From positions 1-64,000 of the forward strand of contig NZ_WTEX01000001.1 of the NCBI RefSeq assembly GCF_009795845.1: a stretch of 64,000 nt of DNA, in the 5' to 3' direction. The DNA is from Gilliamella sp. Lep-s35 (lineage in GTDB: Bacteria; Pseudomonadota; Gammaproteobacteria; Enterobacterales; Orbaceae). The notes beneath the pieces were generated by a model. The model saw only the letters and a list, made by a program, of their open reading frames with translations. It was not told the DNA's origin and ran no database searches. Within the stretch, counting starts at the first letter, position 1. Each line of letters starts with the position of its first letter. A program made the position numbers and the translations under genes. Positions 7,251 to 20,195 of this stretch are shown here, piece after piece.

Positions 7251-7838
7251 ATGGACTCTATTTTGATATTATTAATAGATAATTATGATTCTTTTACTTT
7301 CAATATTCACGATTATTTGTGTCAAGTTGGCGCAGAAGTTAAAGTGATTAAAAATGACGAAATGACAATTGAACAAATAAAAGAGCTTAGCTTTTCTAAG
7401 ATTATCATTTCGCCGGGGCCTAGCTCCCCAATCAATGCCGGAATATCACTTGCTGCGATTGCCGAATTTAGTCATATTTGCCCAATATTGGGAGTTTGTT
7501 TAGGCCATCAAGCGATTGCTCAATATTATGGGTATAAGATTATTAAAGCACCAACACCTATGCATGGAAAAGTCGATGAAATAATGCATGATGGTCAAGG
7601 CGTGTTTAAAGGAATCAAAAGCCCGCTTTCAGTCGTTCGTTATCATTCATTAATTGCTTGTGATAAGCTTTTATCAAAAGAGTCACAACTAATTGTAACA
7701 GCAAGAAACCATCAAGGATTGATTATGGGATTACGCCATAAAATGTTACCCATAGAGTCCGTCCAATTCCATCCAGAAGCAATTAAAACCGAATTTGGTT
7801 TACAAATGATTGATAATTTTGTCCATGAGCAATACTAA
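7251..7838 (+). CDS. pabA: aminodeoxychorismate synthase glutamine amidotransferase
   Basis: 195 residues, class I glutamine amidotransferase. It has the N-terminal LIDNYDSFTFN (about 8-18), oxyanion motif SPGPSSP (about 53-59), nucleophile loop GVCLGHQAIAQYYG (Cys near 84) and the catalytic pair in SVQFHPEA (about 172-179). It releases ammonia from glutamine for PabB in p-aminobenzoate (folate) synthesis. TrpG is the close alternative, but the pabB-pabC fusion one base downstream decides for pabA. The ATG at 7251 has no clear ribosome site; a TTG at 7263 would give the more usual short N-terminus. Confidence 0.9.
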   Translation: MDSILILLIDNYDSFTFNIHDYLCQVGAEVKVIKNDEMTIEQIKELSFSKIIISPGPSSPINAGISLAAIAEFSHICPILGVCLGHQAIAQYYGYKIIKAPTPMHGKVDEIMHDGQGVFKGIKSPLSVVRYHSLIACDKLLSKESQLIVTARNHQGLIMGLRHKMLPIESVQFHPEAIKTEFGLQMIDNFVHEQY

Positions 7839-7839
7839 A

Positions 7840-9594
7840 ATGAAAATTCATATTGATTTTGAAGGTCAACATAAATATTTTTGCAATCCAATAAAAGTTT
7901 TTGCTACAAATGATTATTCTTTAATTAAACAACAATTGGATGAAATCGAAAAATTCACACAACAAGGCTATTATGCAGTTGGATATCTCGCTTATGAAAG
8001 CGCAATGGGATTCAATAGTGAACATAAAACAAAACAGAATTATGATTTGCCGCTATTGATATTTGGTATTTTTGATAAATTTTCTATCATTGAGCAAAAA
8101 CATGTAGAAATAAGTGATTACACTCCACCAACTTTTGATTTGATAAGCGATACATCAAGAGACGAATATAATAAAAAGATTGATTTTATTCGCTCGCAAA
8201 TTGAATCAGGCAATACTTATCAAACCAACTATACAATTCAATTTACTGCGCCATTCAATGACAGCGCTATTGATTATTACTATTTTCTACAAAAGAACAA
8301 TCAAGCCGACTATTGCGCTTATATTGAGTTTGACGACTATTGTATTTTATCAATTTCGCCAGAATTATTTTTTAAGTTAGAAAATAAAATTATTACCACA
8401 AAACCAATGAAAGGAACTACTGCCCGTGGTTTAACTAATCAACAAGATAAGCAACAATTAGAATTTTTATTTTCTGAAAAAAACCAAGCTGAAAATATGA
8501 TGATTGTTGATTTATTACGTAATGATTTAAGTCGGGTTGCAAAGGCAGGATCAGTTACAGTTCCTAAATTATTTTCAGCCGAAAAATATCCAACCGTTTG
8601 GCAATTGACTTCTATGATTCAAGGTGAATTGAAAGAACATGTTAATTTATATCATATTTTTCAAGCACTATTTCCTTGTGGATCAATAACTGGAGCGCCT
8701 AAAACCAGTACCATGCAAATTATTGCCGATATTGAAAACTCACCTCGAGGTGTTTACTGTGGAACAATTGGTTATATTGAACCATATATGAACAAAGCTA
8801 TATTCAATATCCCAATTCGGACTTTAACCATACACAATCAACAAATGCATTATGGTGTTGGCGGAGGGATCACTTGGGATTCAACCTCACAAGATGAATA
8901 TAATGAGATTTTAGCTAAAACAGCAATTTTAACTCGTACCACTTCTTCTCCCAAATATATCATTGAATCATTATTGCTTGAAAAAGGACAATTTTTCTTA
9001 TTGGAAGAACATTTAAGCAGACTTTCTCAATCAGCTGATTATTTCGATTTTAGATGTGATATTAATGCGATTAAGTTGCACCTTATTAAGTTAGCGATTG
9101 CAACCACTGAAAATATTTCGAATATTTATAAAGTCAGAGTGTTACTGCAAAAAAATGGGCTATATACTATTAGCGAGAATATCATTAACTCGCCAATGGA
9201 GATCAATGAAATCGCATTTGCAAAACAGTGTGTTCATAACCAAAATGTCTATTTGTATCATAAAACGTCAAATCGTGAACACTTTCCTGATTTAGCTACA
9301 GGAAAAGAGTATATTAATTTTAATCAATACAATGAAATCACTGAATTTGTTAACGGTAATCTGGCATTGCTGATTAATGATCAATGGATTACCCCTAAAA
9401 AAGAATCAGGATTACTAGCTGGCACCATGCGGCAATTTTATTTAGATCATAATCAATTGTTAGAAAAAACACTTTTAAAAGATGATCTTTTAAAAGCTAA
9501 TAAAATCGCATTTATCAATAGTGTTCGCAAATGGATTACGATTGATGATGAGGTTTTTAGTCAATTCAAATTGCAATTAAAATCATTGATTTAA
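7840..9594 (+). CDS. pabB-pabC: fused aminodeoxychorismate synthase I / aminodeoxychorismate lyase
   Basis: 584 residues from the ATG one base after the pabA stop; in-frame ATGs at 7810 and 7825 are alternatives. The first 350 or so residues are a chorismate-binding domain with CGSITGAPKTSTMQII and GVYCGTIGYIEP, lacking most of the usual N-terminal subdomain. The rest is a PabC-like, aminotransferase class IV domain with a candidate PLP lysine in YHKTSNREH and ELVNG-like FVNGNLALL. One polypeptide would thus make 4-amino-4-deoxychorismate and release pyruvate to give p-aminobenzoate. Fusions of this kind are known in other bacteria. No separate pabB or pabC is in the window. Confidence 0.9.
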   Translation: MKIHIDFEGQHKYFCNPIKVFATNDYSLIKQQLDEIEKFTQQGYYAVGYLAYESAMGFNSEHKTKQNYDLPLLIFGIFDKFSIIEQKHVEISDYTPPTFDLISDTSRDEYNKKIDFIRSQIESGNTYQTNYTIQFTAPFNDSAIDYYYFLQKNNQADYCAYIEFDDYCILSISPELFFKLENKIITTKPMKGTTARGLTNQQDKQQLEFLFSEKNQAENMMIVDLLRNDLSRVAKAGSVTVPKLFSAEKYPTVWQLTSMIQGELKEHVNLYHIFQALFPCGSITGAPKTSTMQIIADIENSPRGVYCGTIGYIEPYMNKAIFNIPIRTLTIHNQQMHYGVGGGITWDSTSQDEYNEILAKTAILTRTTSSPKYIIESLLLEKGQFFLLEEHLSRLSQSADYFDFRCDINAIKLHLIKLAIATTENISNIYKVRVLLQKNGLYTISENIINSPMEINEIAFAKQCVHNQNVYLYHKTSNREHFPDLATGKEYINFNQYNEITEFVNGNLALLINDQWITPKKESGLLAGTMRQFYLDHNQLLEKTLLKDDLLKANKIAFINSVRKWITIDDEVFSQFKLQLKSLI

Positions 9595-15277: not shown

Positions 15278-17911
15278 ATGAAAAGCACTGCAGAAATTCG
15301 TCAAAGTTTTCTTGACTTTTTCCATAACAAAGGACATGAAGTTGTCGCAAGTAGTTCCCTTGTTCCACACAATGACCCAACTCTATTGTTTACTAATGCA
15401 GGAATGAATCAATTTAAAGATGTTTTTCTTGGTGTTGATAAGCGTTCTTACACTAGAGCCACAACATCGCAACGTTGTGTCCGTGCGGGCGGTAAACATA
15501 ATGATTTAGACAATGTCGGCTACACAGCTCGACATCATACTTTTTTTGAAATGTTAGGGAACTTCAGTTTCGGCGATTATTTTAAGCATGATGCAATTCA
15601 TTTTGCATGGGAATTATTAACCAGTAAAGAATGGTTTAATCTACCTAAAGATAAACTAACTGTCACTGTTTATGAAACCGATAACGAAGCATATGCAATT
15701 TGGGAAAAAGAAATCGGTATCCCTAAAGAACGCATAATTCGTATTGGTGATAATAAAGGTGCGCCATATGCTTCTGATAACTTTTGGCAAATGGGGGATA
15801 CAGGTCCTTGTGGTCCTTGTACCGAAATTTTCTACGATCATGGTGATCACCTTTGGGGTGGGCCTCCTGGTAGCGCTGAAGAAGATGGCGATAGATTTAT
15901 CGAAATTTGGAACATCGTCTTTATGCAATTTAATCGCCATCCTGACGGCACAATGGAACCATTACCTAAACCATCAGTCGATACAGGAATGGGGTTAGAG
16001 CGCATTGCCGCTGTTTTGCAACATGTCAACTCTAATTATGAAATAGATCTTTTTAAAAAATTAATTAAAGATGCAGCAGAGATTATTCAAACTAAAGATC
16101 TAGAAAATAAATCACTACGCGTTATTGCCGACCATATCCGTTCTTGTGCTTTTCTTATTTCAGATGGCGTATTACCTTCAAACGAAGGCCGAGGCTATGT
16201 ATTACGACGTATAATTCGACGTGCAGTGCGCCATGGACATATGCTTGGCGCAAAAGGCATATTTTTCTACAAACTGGTAAAACCATTAATTGATGTGATG
16301 GAAAGCGCTGCGGTTGAATTAGCCAATAATCAAAAACAAGTTGAAGACGCACTTAAACTAGAAGAAGAGCAATTTCTAAAAACATTAGAACGTGGATTAT
16401 TTTTGCTTGATCAAGAGTTAACAAAAATCACAGGCAAAATATTACCCGGTGATGTTGCATTTAAACTTTATGACACCTATGGCTTTCCACTAGATTTAAC
16501 CGCAGATGTATGTCGCGAAAAAAATATCTCTATCGATGAAGAAGCCTTTAATCGATGCATGGAAGAACAACGAAAGCGCGCACGTGAATCAAGTTCATTT
16601 AGTGTTGATTATAGCAACGTCATCAAACTTGATGATGAAACTGAATTTTTAGGTTATCAAGCCACTGAAGCTTCAGGTAAGATTATTGCTATATTTAAAA
16701 ATGGTCAAAAAGTTGACAGTATTCATACTGGTGATGAAGCTATTATCATTCTAGATAAAACACCATTTTATGGTGAATCAGGTGGTCAAATTGGTGATAA
16801 AGGCTTATTAACAGCTGCAAATGTTGAATTTACTGTTTTAGATAGTCAAAAATATGGAAAAAGTATCGGCCATATAGGTAACATCGTCAAAGGCTCTTTA
16901 AAAGTTGGAGACACAGTTACAGCGGCAATTGATGTTGAGCTACGTGAGCGAATTCGTCGTAATCATTCAGCTACACATTTATTACAAGCTGCATTACAAC
17001 ACGTTTTAGGTAATCATGTTCATCAAAAAGGGTCTTTAGTCAATGATAACTATCTGCGCTTTGACTTTTCACATAACCAAGCCATAACGCAAGAACAAAT
17101 TATTGAAATAGAAAACCTTGTTAACCGACAAATTCGTCGCAATTTACCAGTTGATATTGAGCTTATGCCGATCGATGAAGCCAAAAACAAAGGCGCTATG
17201 GCACTATTTGGTGAAAAATATGACGATATAGTAAGAGTGCTTACTATGGGCGATTTTTCGATTGAACTTTGCGGTGGTACTCATGTAGATAGAACCGGCG
17301 ATATTGGTTTATTTAAAATAATATCAGAATCAAGCATAGCATCTGGCGTACGCCGTATTGAAGCGACCTCGGGGCAAAATGCAATGGATCTAATACACTA
17401 TGAGTCAAATTTATTAACTCAGATTGGACAAATCATTAAAAGTGATAAATCTGCAGTTTTAGCACGTATTGAACAACTGTCTGATCAAACCAAGCAGCTT
17501 GAAAAAACAGTTGAACAATTAAAAGCACAAAAAGCTAGCCAAGAAAGCGCTCAATTGCTTAATCAATGTGAACAAATCAATAATACTAATGTACTTATTG
17601 CTAAACTTGACAATATTGAAGCAAAAGTATTACGCACTATGATTGATGATCTTAAAAATCAGTTAAAAACAGCCGTAATTATTTTGGCTGCTGTTAACGA
17701 TGGAAAAATCAATTTAGCTGCAGGTGTAACTAATGATTTAATCAAAAATATTAAAGCTGGTGAGCTAGTTTCTCAATTGGCATTAAAAATAGGTGGTAAA
17801 GGTGGTGGGCGGCCTGATTTCGCTCAAGCAGGTGGAATGGATCTCTCAGCATTACCCGAAGCATTATCTTCGGTAAAAAAGGAAATCAGTAATAAATTAC
17901 AAGCAAGTTAG
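15278..17911 (+). CDS. alaS: alanyl-tRNA synthetase
   Basis: 877 residues, full length. Class II catalytic core at the N-terminus ([36 protein letters not shown]), editing domain with zinc ligands [11 protein letters not shown] and [13 protein letters not shown] (about 555-670), a coiled-coil linker near 730-770, and a C-terminal glycine-rich C-Ala domain ([20 protein letters not shown]). Gene order recX-alaS-csrA-tRNA-Ser-tRNA-Arg matches E. coli. Confidence 0.98.
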
Positions 17912-18054: not shown

Positions 18055-18255
18055 ATGTTAATTTTAACTAGGAGAGTAGGTGAAACACTAATAATTGGGG
18101 ACGATGTAGTTATTACCATCTTAGGCGTAAAAGGCAATCAAGTCAGAGTTGGTATTAATGCACCTAAAGACGTTTCTATTCACAGAGAAGAGATATATAA
18201 CAGAATTCATCAAATACAAGATTCAACGGATGAATTCCCCGAGCCTAAAGGGTAA
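18055..18255 (+). CDS. csrA: carbon storage regulator CsrA
   Basis: 66 residues. Nearly canonical Csr[21 protein letters not shown], then [20 protein letters not shown] (both RNA-binding edges intact), with a slightly longer, acidic C-terminal tail than E. coli (61 residues). It binds GGA motifs in mRNA leaders to control translation. A strong AGGAGAG lies upstream of the ATG. No CsrB/C-like small RNA was seen in this window. Confidence 0.97.
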
Positions 18256-18376: not shown

Positions 18377-18469
18377 GGTGAGATGGCCGAGAGGCTGAAG
18401 GCGCTCCCCTGCTAAGGGAGTATGCGGTCAAAAGCTGCATCGAGGGTTCGAATCCCTCTCTCACCGCCA
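18377..18469 (+). tRNA. serV: tRNA-Ser (GCU)
   Basis: 93 bases with encoded CCA. Acceptor GGTGAGA/TCTCACC, long variable arm typical of class II tRNAs, anticodon stem CTCCC/GGGAG around CTGCTAA giving anticodon GCT, and T arm with GGTTCGAATCC. It is first in a cluster equivalent to E. coli serV-argVYZQ. Confidence 0.97.
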
Positions 18470-18488
18470 TTTTAAAAATTTAAAATAT

Positions 18489-18565
18489 GCATCCGTAGCT
18501 CAGCTGGATAGAGCACCCGGCTACGAACCGGGAGGTCAGGGGTTCGAATCCCTTCGGATGCACCA
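18489..18565 (+). tRNA. tRNA-Arg (ACG), copy 1
   Basis: 77 bases, CCA encoded. Acceptor GCATCCG/CGGATGC; anticodon stem CCCGG/CCGGG around CTACGAA gives ACG (read as ICG after deamination, so it serves CGU, CGC and CGA). Confidence 0.97.
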
Positions 18566-18582
18566 TTTTAAAACTTCAAAAC

Positions 18583-18659
18583 GCATCCGTAGCTCAGCTG
18601 GATAGAGTACCCGGCTACGAACCGGGCGGTCAGGGGTTCGAATCCCTTCGGATGCACCA
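18583..18659 (+). tRNA. tRNA-Arg (ACG), copy 2
   Basis: 77 bases, CCA encoded, 17 bases after copy 1. It differs from copy 1 by GAGT for GAGC in the D-stem (a G-U pair) and CGG for AGG in the variable loop. Anticodon ACG. Confidence 0.96.
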
Positions 18660-18680
18660 CTTTTTTTAACGAACTTACAC

Positions 18681-18757
18681 GCATCCGTAGCTCAGCTGGA
18701 TAGAGCACTCGGCTTCGAACCGAGCGGTCAGGGGTTCGAATCCCTTCGGGTGCGCCA
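18681..18757 (+). tRNA. tRNA-Arg (UCG), anticodon-switched copy
   Basis: 77 bases, CCA encoded, third tandem tRNA-Arg. The body matches the two ACG copies but the anticodon loop reads CTTCGAA, giving TCG, and the stem is CTCGG/CCGAG with a compensated pair. The acceptor has one G-U pair (GCATCCG/CGGGTGC). It should read CGA and CGG. The E. coli arginine tRNAs of this cluster are all ACG. Confidence 0.93.

Positions 18758-18890: not shown

Positions 18891-20195
<1,305 letters not shown>

Follow-up and report, generated by a model that had tools for sequence, protein, structure and literature searches.

A tRNA-Arg(UCG) gene of Orbaceae, most simply a changed copy of a tandem tRNA-Arg(ACG) array, is the probable only encoded reader of CGG

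The last gene of a four-tRNA cluster in Gilliamella sp. Lep-s35 codes for a tRNA-Arg with the anticodon UCG. We hold with high confidence that this is a tRNA-Arg derived from tRNA-Arg(ACG) which has replaced tRNA-Arg(CCG) and is now the probable only encoded reader of CGG codons. In the scenario proposed, one tandem ACG copy lying between csrA and serS in the ancestor of the sampled Orbaceae would have changed A34 to U34. The U34 tRNA would no longer be a substrate of TadA, and would pair with CGG through U-G wobble and with CGA in Watson-Crick fashion. tRNA-Arg(CCG), the ordinary CGG reader, would be missing; the remaining ACG copies, deaminated to ICG by TadA, would keep CGU and CGC and share CGA with tRNA-Arg(UCG). 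We infer that the gene is expressed, that its product is charged with arginine, modified at the wobble base and essential, and that the UCG gene was gained before the CCG gene was lost. The support for the replacement mechanism is good, and comes from comparison and not from experiment.

RESULTS

The tRNA-Arg(UCG) gene closes a cluster located between csrA and serS

The window, i.e. the whole stretch of DNA analysed, spans 64,000 nt. The source genome is a 2.47 Mb draft in 103 contigs, with the cluster on contig C19. On the + strand between csrA and serS, positions 18377-18757 hold genes for tRNA-Ser(GCU), tRNA-Arg(ACG), a second tRNA-Arg(ACG) and tRNA-Arg(UCG), in this order (Table 1), an assignment by ARAGORN that Rfam bears out. 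A preliminary description of this DNA had recognized a tRNA-Arg with a TCG anticodon beside tandem ACG genes, and ARAGORN called the gene over exactly that span; its score against Rfam RF00005 was 67.1 bits (gathering score, 29), as expected of a cloverleaf tRNA. The gene encodes CCA and has A20 in the D-loop and G73 as discriminator base (A20 and base 73 were placed by eye). A20 and A/G73 are arginine identity elements (PMC8629427), and both were present when the sequence was inspected by eye. The same description held that the E. coli cluster contains ACG copies only, which was true of 4 of 4 Arg genes in the single E. coli record examined. Scans for promoters and terminators found nothing that rose above shuffled sequence.

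Elsewhere in the window, positions 7810-9594 (+) code for a protein of 594 aa, residues 102-371 of which match PabB/TrpE-type chorismate enzymes, with residues 384-574 matching the aminotransferase-like chain 3qqm. It appears to be a PabB-PabC fusion.

Table 1. Genes of the tRNA cluster and its neighbours (window coordinates)
Feature	Position	Strand	Evidence and remarks
alaS, upstream of csrA	15278..17911	+	NCBIfam TIGR00344, 1150 bits (cut-off 457.05)
csrA, upstream neighbour	18055..18255	+	NCBIfam NF002469, 110.7 bits (cut-off 73)
tRNA-Ser(GCU), anticodon GCT, leads the cluster	18377..18469	+	ARAGORN, Rfam
tRNA-Arg(ACG), first copy	18489..18565	+	ARAGORN; body unique (1/77 Orbaceae ACG genes collected)
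tRNA-Arg(ACG), second copy	18583..18659	+	ARAGORN; same form in 66/77 Orbaceae ACG genes collected
tRNA-Arg(UCG), anticodon TCG	18681..18757	+	ARAGORN, exact span; Rfam RF00005
serS, downstream neighbour	18903..20195	+	NCBIfam TIGR00414, 585.8 bits (cut-off 301.65)

The gene is present in all the Orbaceae genera sampled

tRNA-Arg(UCG) was seen in 41 of 44 Orbaceae genomes, whole in 39 and cut by contig ends in two (G005 and G019). The clusters were fetched for 42 of the 44. Of the other two genomes, G031 (59% complete) gave no match to the UCG gene, and G025 (67% complete) gave two matches and was left out of the cluster reading. The whole UCG gene stands last in 39 of the 42 clusters fetched, and in all 39 it follows an ACG gene. 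Thirty of these whole genes are identical over 77 nt, eight differ only at the discriminator base, and one (G011) differs at a few positions; nine of the 39, including those of other genera, have A73. A misreading of the anticodon, which would have undone the original description, is very unlikely, given these 30 identical genes and the TCG of the nine others.

A 37-base stretch of the UCG gene found 26 exact matches in named GTDB records, all of them Orbaceae (Gilliamella, Orbus, Frischella, Schmidhempelia, Zophobihabitans or 'Orbaceae bacterium'), in a search that may leave out records very near the window. Since the gene occurs in all five Orbaceae genera sampled, the ACG-to-UCG change probably predates their split. 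Cluster spacing varied: the spacers of two clusters, L206 (G004) and L214 (G011), were 37-63 bases long, versus 10-25 in the other clusters.

tRNA-Arg(CCG) was not found in Orbaceae

A strict CCG pattern anchored on the D-arm matched none of 22 Orbaceae genomes and 233 of the 273 other genomes of the order. In the order and class samples this pattern replaced a first, looser one, discarded as it matched 43 of 44 genomes, mostly no more than its backward control. When three mismatches were allowed in 13 Orbaceae, the anticodons among the matches listed were ACG, TCG, TCT and CAT only, with no CCG. The one-contig relative G001 has, among 50 ARAGORN genes, Arg genes with the anticodons ACG (two), UCG, UCU and CCU (one each). 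No CCG appeared among its 52 Rfam tRNA matches, which came from 150 scored out of 227 first-look candidates; two of them that ARAGORN did not call were, by eye, poor tRNA-like stretches with loops other than CCG. These two are weak (46.7 and 32.5 bits), look decayed and adjoin each other at L393 (G001:C1:865250-865700). The 103-contig draft of the source genome likewise gave no CCG gene (150 of 196 first-look candidates were scored in its Rfam search), an absence backed by G001.

The UCG pattern matched 33 of 295 genomes of the order, namely 21 of 22 Orbaceae and 12 of 273 others, and none of the 33 matched the CCG pattern (Fisher test, 7e-27; 2e-11 without Orbaceae; related genomes are not independent). 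Neither pattern was matched in 29 of the 295, which suggests that the patterns miss some genes or that genomes are incomplete. In a sample of 229 genomes of the class, UCG was found in 39 and CCG in 156; 13 genomes had both, 26 only UCG, 143 only CCG and 47 neither (Fisher test, 1e-6; the 2x2 tables for order and class were tallied by eye). Outside Orbaceae the class sample had UCG in 38 of 228 genomes; together with the 12 of 273 in the order, and with the low identity of the outside UCG types (see below), this means that the same gene is not general in Gammaproteobacteria; had it been general, this would have spoken against the original description. A strict exclusion of UCG and CCG everywhere had to be dropped, as 13 of the 39 UCG genomes of the class sample also carry CCG: the two genes tend to exclude each other, but do not always do so. 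Such genomes indicate that a stage with both genes exists, and might represent an intermediate of the swap.

CGG codons are in use and TadA is encoded

TadA scored above its family cut-off in all 44 Orbaceae genomes. The TadA of the source genome aligns with that of E. coli (1z3a) and retains the HAE and PCxxC stretches, which are deaminase motifs. With tRNA-Arg(ACG) and TadA both encoded, ICG is predicted to cover CGU, CGC and CGA, deamination being assumed. CGG made up 95 of 48,132 codons in the sample of the source genome (2.0 per 1000), and ranged from 1.9 to 3.0 per 1000 in samples of five further Orbaceae. Counts were made on open reading frames of at least 150 aa with little overlap, from the window plus six stretches of 20 kb for the source genome and from two to four such stretches in each of nine other genomes, G034 being added with four. 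Because no CCG gene was found, CGG is still used and TadA is present, tRNA-Arg(UCG) is very probably the sole encoded tRNA able to read CGG. A reassignment of CGG was rejected, given the arginine identity elements and the alignments to PDB chains: of 13 CGG codons that fall inside such alignments in four window proteins, 10 face Arg (by eye), and the remaining three, which face Gly, Ala and Glu, all belong to the 2-isopropylmalate synthase alignment.

According to the preliminary description, a dedicated UCG tRNA would change how CGA and CGG are decoded, in keeping with an AT-rich genome. This held for CGG, where the gene matters in that no CCG tRNA was found; no shift was visible in the use of either codon. 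CGA stood at 6.9 per 1000 in the source genome (35.5% GC), and the CCG-bearing relative G047 (33.3% GC) had 8.0 CGA and 1.9 CGG per 1000. A raised CGA use in UCG genomes was thus not found for Orbaceae against this one comparator of similar GC. G207, a UCG-bearing genome outside Orbaceae, differed from the Orbaceae sampled in having more CGA (14.3 per 1000) than CGU (10.1; L348-L351).

CmoB scored above its cut-off in 41 of the 44 Orbaceae, the three below it being 59-74% complete. Since CmoB is encoded, a putative cmo5U34 modification of tRNA-Arg(UCG) is possible. Several partial or split copies of cmoB were present in G004 (contigs C1, C2 and C3); the other well-assembled Orbaceae listed had one near full-length match each.

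An assembly lacking both genes

The main observation against UCG as the CGG reader comes from G034 (99% complete, 40 contigs), whose assembly has neither UCG nor CCG. Its cluster (L215, G034:C42:37600-39200) is shortened to tRNA-Ser(GCU) and a single ACG gene of the common Orbaceae sequence. The 3' flank of that gene matches the one behind the UCG gene of G033 at 40 of 40 positions, and those of 76 Orbaceae ACG genes at no more than 17 of 40. An ACG gene with the 3' flank of a UCG gene fits a tandem array that the assembler collapsed; the short cluster is likely to be such an artefact and looks like a majority consensus. A real loss of the UCG gene in G034 is conceivable.

The use of CGG in this genome (1.88 per 1000 in four stretches of 20 kb) agrees with another reading, in which tRNA-Arg(UCG) gives redundant help with CGA, the genome being AT-rich, and is not needed for CGG, which is read otherwise, e.g. 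by residual unmodified ACG as proposed for Mollicutes; residual A34 reading has been argued for M. capricolum (PMC3711424). We regard a redundant role as very improbable: the UCG gene is strongly conserved, the Orbaceae searched gave no CCG, TadA is encoded with both characteristic stretches, and CGA use is no higher than in the CCG-bearing relative.

The body of the gene is that of tRNA-Arg(ACG)

Gene bodies were compared over 73 positions, leaving out CCA and masking the wobble base. The set contained only 77-nt ARAGORN genes with the anticodons ACG, TCG or CCG, identical sequences being merged to give 86 rows; this excluded a few UCG calls of lesser length and every genome whose locus had not been fetched. 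Orbaceae UCG genes agreed at best at 72 of the 73 positions with Orbaceae ACG genes, at 68 with outgroup ACG genes, at 64 with outgroup UCG genes and at 59 with CCG genes. By the measure for anticodon switches used by Yona and colleagues, the body is nearer to an ACG gene than to genes with its own anticodon, since the 29 distinct UCG types from outside Orbaceae shared only 53-64 positions. In a FastTree analysis the three Orbaceae UCG types grouped into a single clade (support 0.86) nested within the Orbaceae ACG genes; the clade enclosing it had support 0 and took in one outgroup ACG type. The tree is weak, being based on only 73 positions from tandem copies that seem to exchange sequence. 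The Orbaceae UCG gene would most simply be a changed copy of the tandem ACG array in which it lies, as had been proposed at the outset.

The stem pair was to be read differently. The preliminary description had seen a compensatory change of the UCG gene in the T-A pair of its anticodon stem (CTCGG/CCGAG), a polarity that is probably reversed. All four ACG genes in the E. coli cluster examined have this pair, as do 18 of 22 ACG genes from eight other genomes of the order; these eight were chosen among those that matched the UCG gene better, and may be biased in its favour. In families further away the stem reads CCTGG or CTTGG, paired with CCAGG (16 matching genomes). Because E. coli and most of these outgroup ACG genes have T-A, the C-G version looks derived, and the UCG gene seems to have kept the older pair while most ACG copies of Orbaceae changed theirs. 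The UCG-type stem also occurs in some ACG genes of G004 (one gene of cluster L206), G011 (both genes of L214) and G043, which is why tandem copies appear to exchange sequence.

That exchange leaves some room for an origin of the UCG gene in the lost tRNA-Arg(CCG), through a C34-to-U34 change and later homogenization with the ACG copies by gene conversion. The acceptor-stem U-G pair and the G73 of most UCG copies are similar to the 3' acceptor strand found in some CCG genes, and in two other genomes of the order, G281 and G289, the UCG gene shares more positions with a CCG gene (61 and 62 of 77) than with the ACG gene of the same genome (59 of 77). We nonetheless find this origin highly improbable for Orbaceae, given that the body agrees at best at 59 of 73 positions with the 30 CCG types compared, that an ACG gene precedes the UCG gene in every whole case, and that nine of the 39 UCG genes, those of other genera among them, have A73. 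An acquisition from another gammaproteobacterium already bearing tRNA-Arg(UCG), which the scatter of the gene through the class could suggest, is hardly credible in view of the low identity of the 29 outside types and of the location in a conserved Ser(GCU)-Arg(ACG) cluster.

Beyond Orbaceae, each of the 29 distinct UCG types has at least one ACG type in the set that is closer to it than every CCG type; UCG thus seems to arise mostly from ACG. A comparison with each genome's own genes counts against such a rule: six of nine UCG genes were nearer to the ACG gene, two were nearer to a CCG gene and one was tied. Two genomes of the class, G481 (L265) and G332 (L266), have UCG in the same cluster as a tRNA-Arg(ACG) of similar body, an apparently independent parallel of the Orbaceae arrangement.

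DISCUSSION

The replacement of CCG by an ACG-derived UCG tRNA would be a natural anticodon change that made the probable sole reader of a codon throughout one family of insect-gut symbionts. The principle is published and UCG replacing CCG has already been described in other bacteria, so that the value of Orbaceae is that of an example, a clean new instance. The family might serve as a test bed for the rewiring of a tRNA set, with the essentiality of the UCG gene, the modification of U34 and the reading of CGA by ICG or UCG as possible subjects. No paper on tRNA anticodons or codon usage in Orbaceae or Gilliamella was found in the open literature, which mostly does not cover subscription journals.

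Shulgina and Eddy (PMC8629427) consider that a UCG tRNA likely reads both CGA and CGG, which would complicate different meanings for the two codons. Wald and Margalit (2014; PMC4041420) state that, where ICG is present, either UCG or CCG is mandatory for CGG. Among their 319 bacteria, 239 had CCG, 24 UCG and 26 both, CCG tracking high and UCG low GC content, and two of the five gains by anticodon mutation that they report were changes from ACG to UCG in arginine tRNA. The link with an AT-rich genome made in the preliminary description agrees with this rule on GC content. The main text of that article makes no mention of Gilliamella or Orbus. As in the bacteria described there, UCG stands in for CCG in Orbaceae; unlike the cases reported in it, the Orbaceae swap spans a whole family, with the donor array still adjacent.

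Mollicutes offer a second likeness. Yokobori and colleagues (2013; PMC3711424) describe members without CCG, with an extra tRNA-Arg(UCG) in the Pneumoniae group and two Hominis species, so that those species and Orbaceae share the absence of CCG and the presence of UCG. The TadA of these Mollicutes is, according to the same article, altered or lost, whereas Orbaceae encode a TadA with its motifs and keep their ACG genes.

An experimental counterpart is that of Yona and colleagues (2013; PMC3868979), in which a single substitution in one of several copies of an arginine tRNA supplied a missing isoacceptor, and the bodies of tRNAs for the same amino acid proved interchangeable. Their work comprised a UCU-to-CCU change in laboratory yeast and a database survey of natural switches, whereas the change in Orbaceae is natural, bacterial and old, and leads from ACG to UCG.
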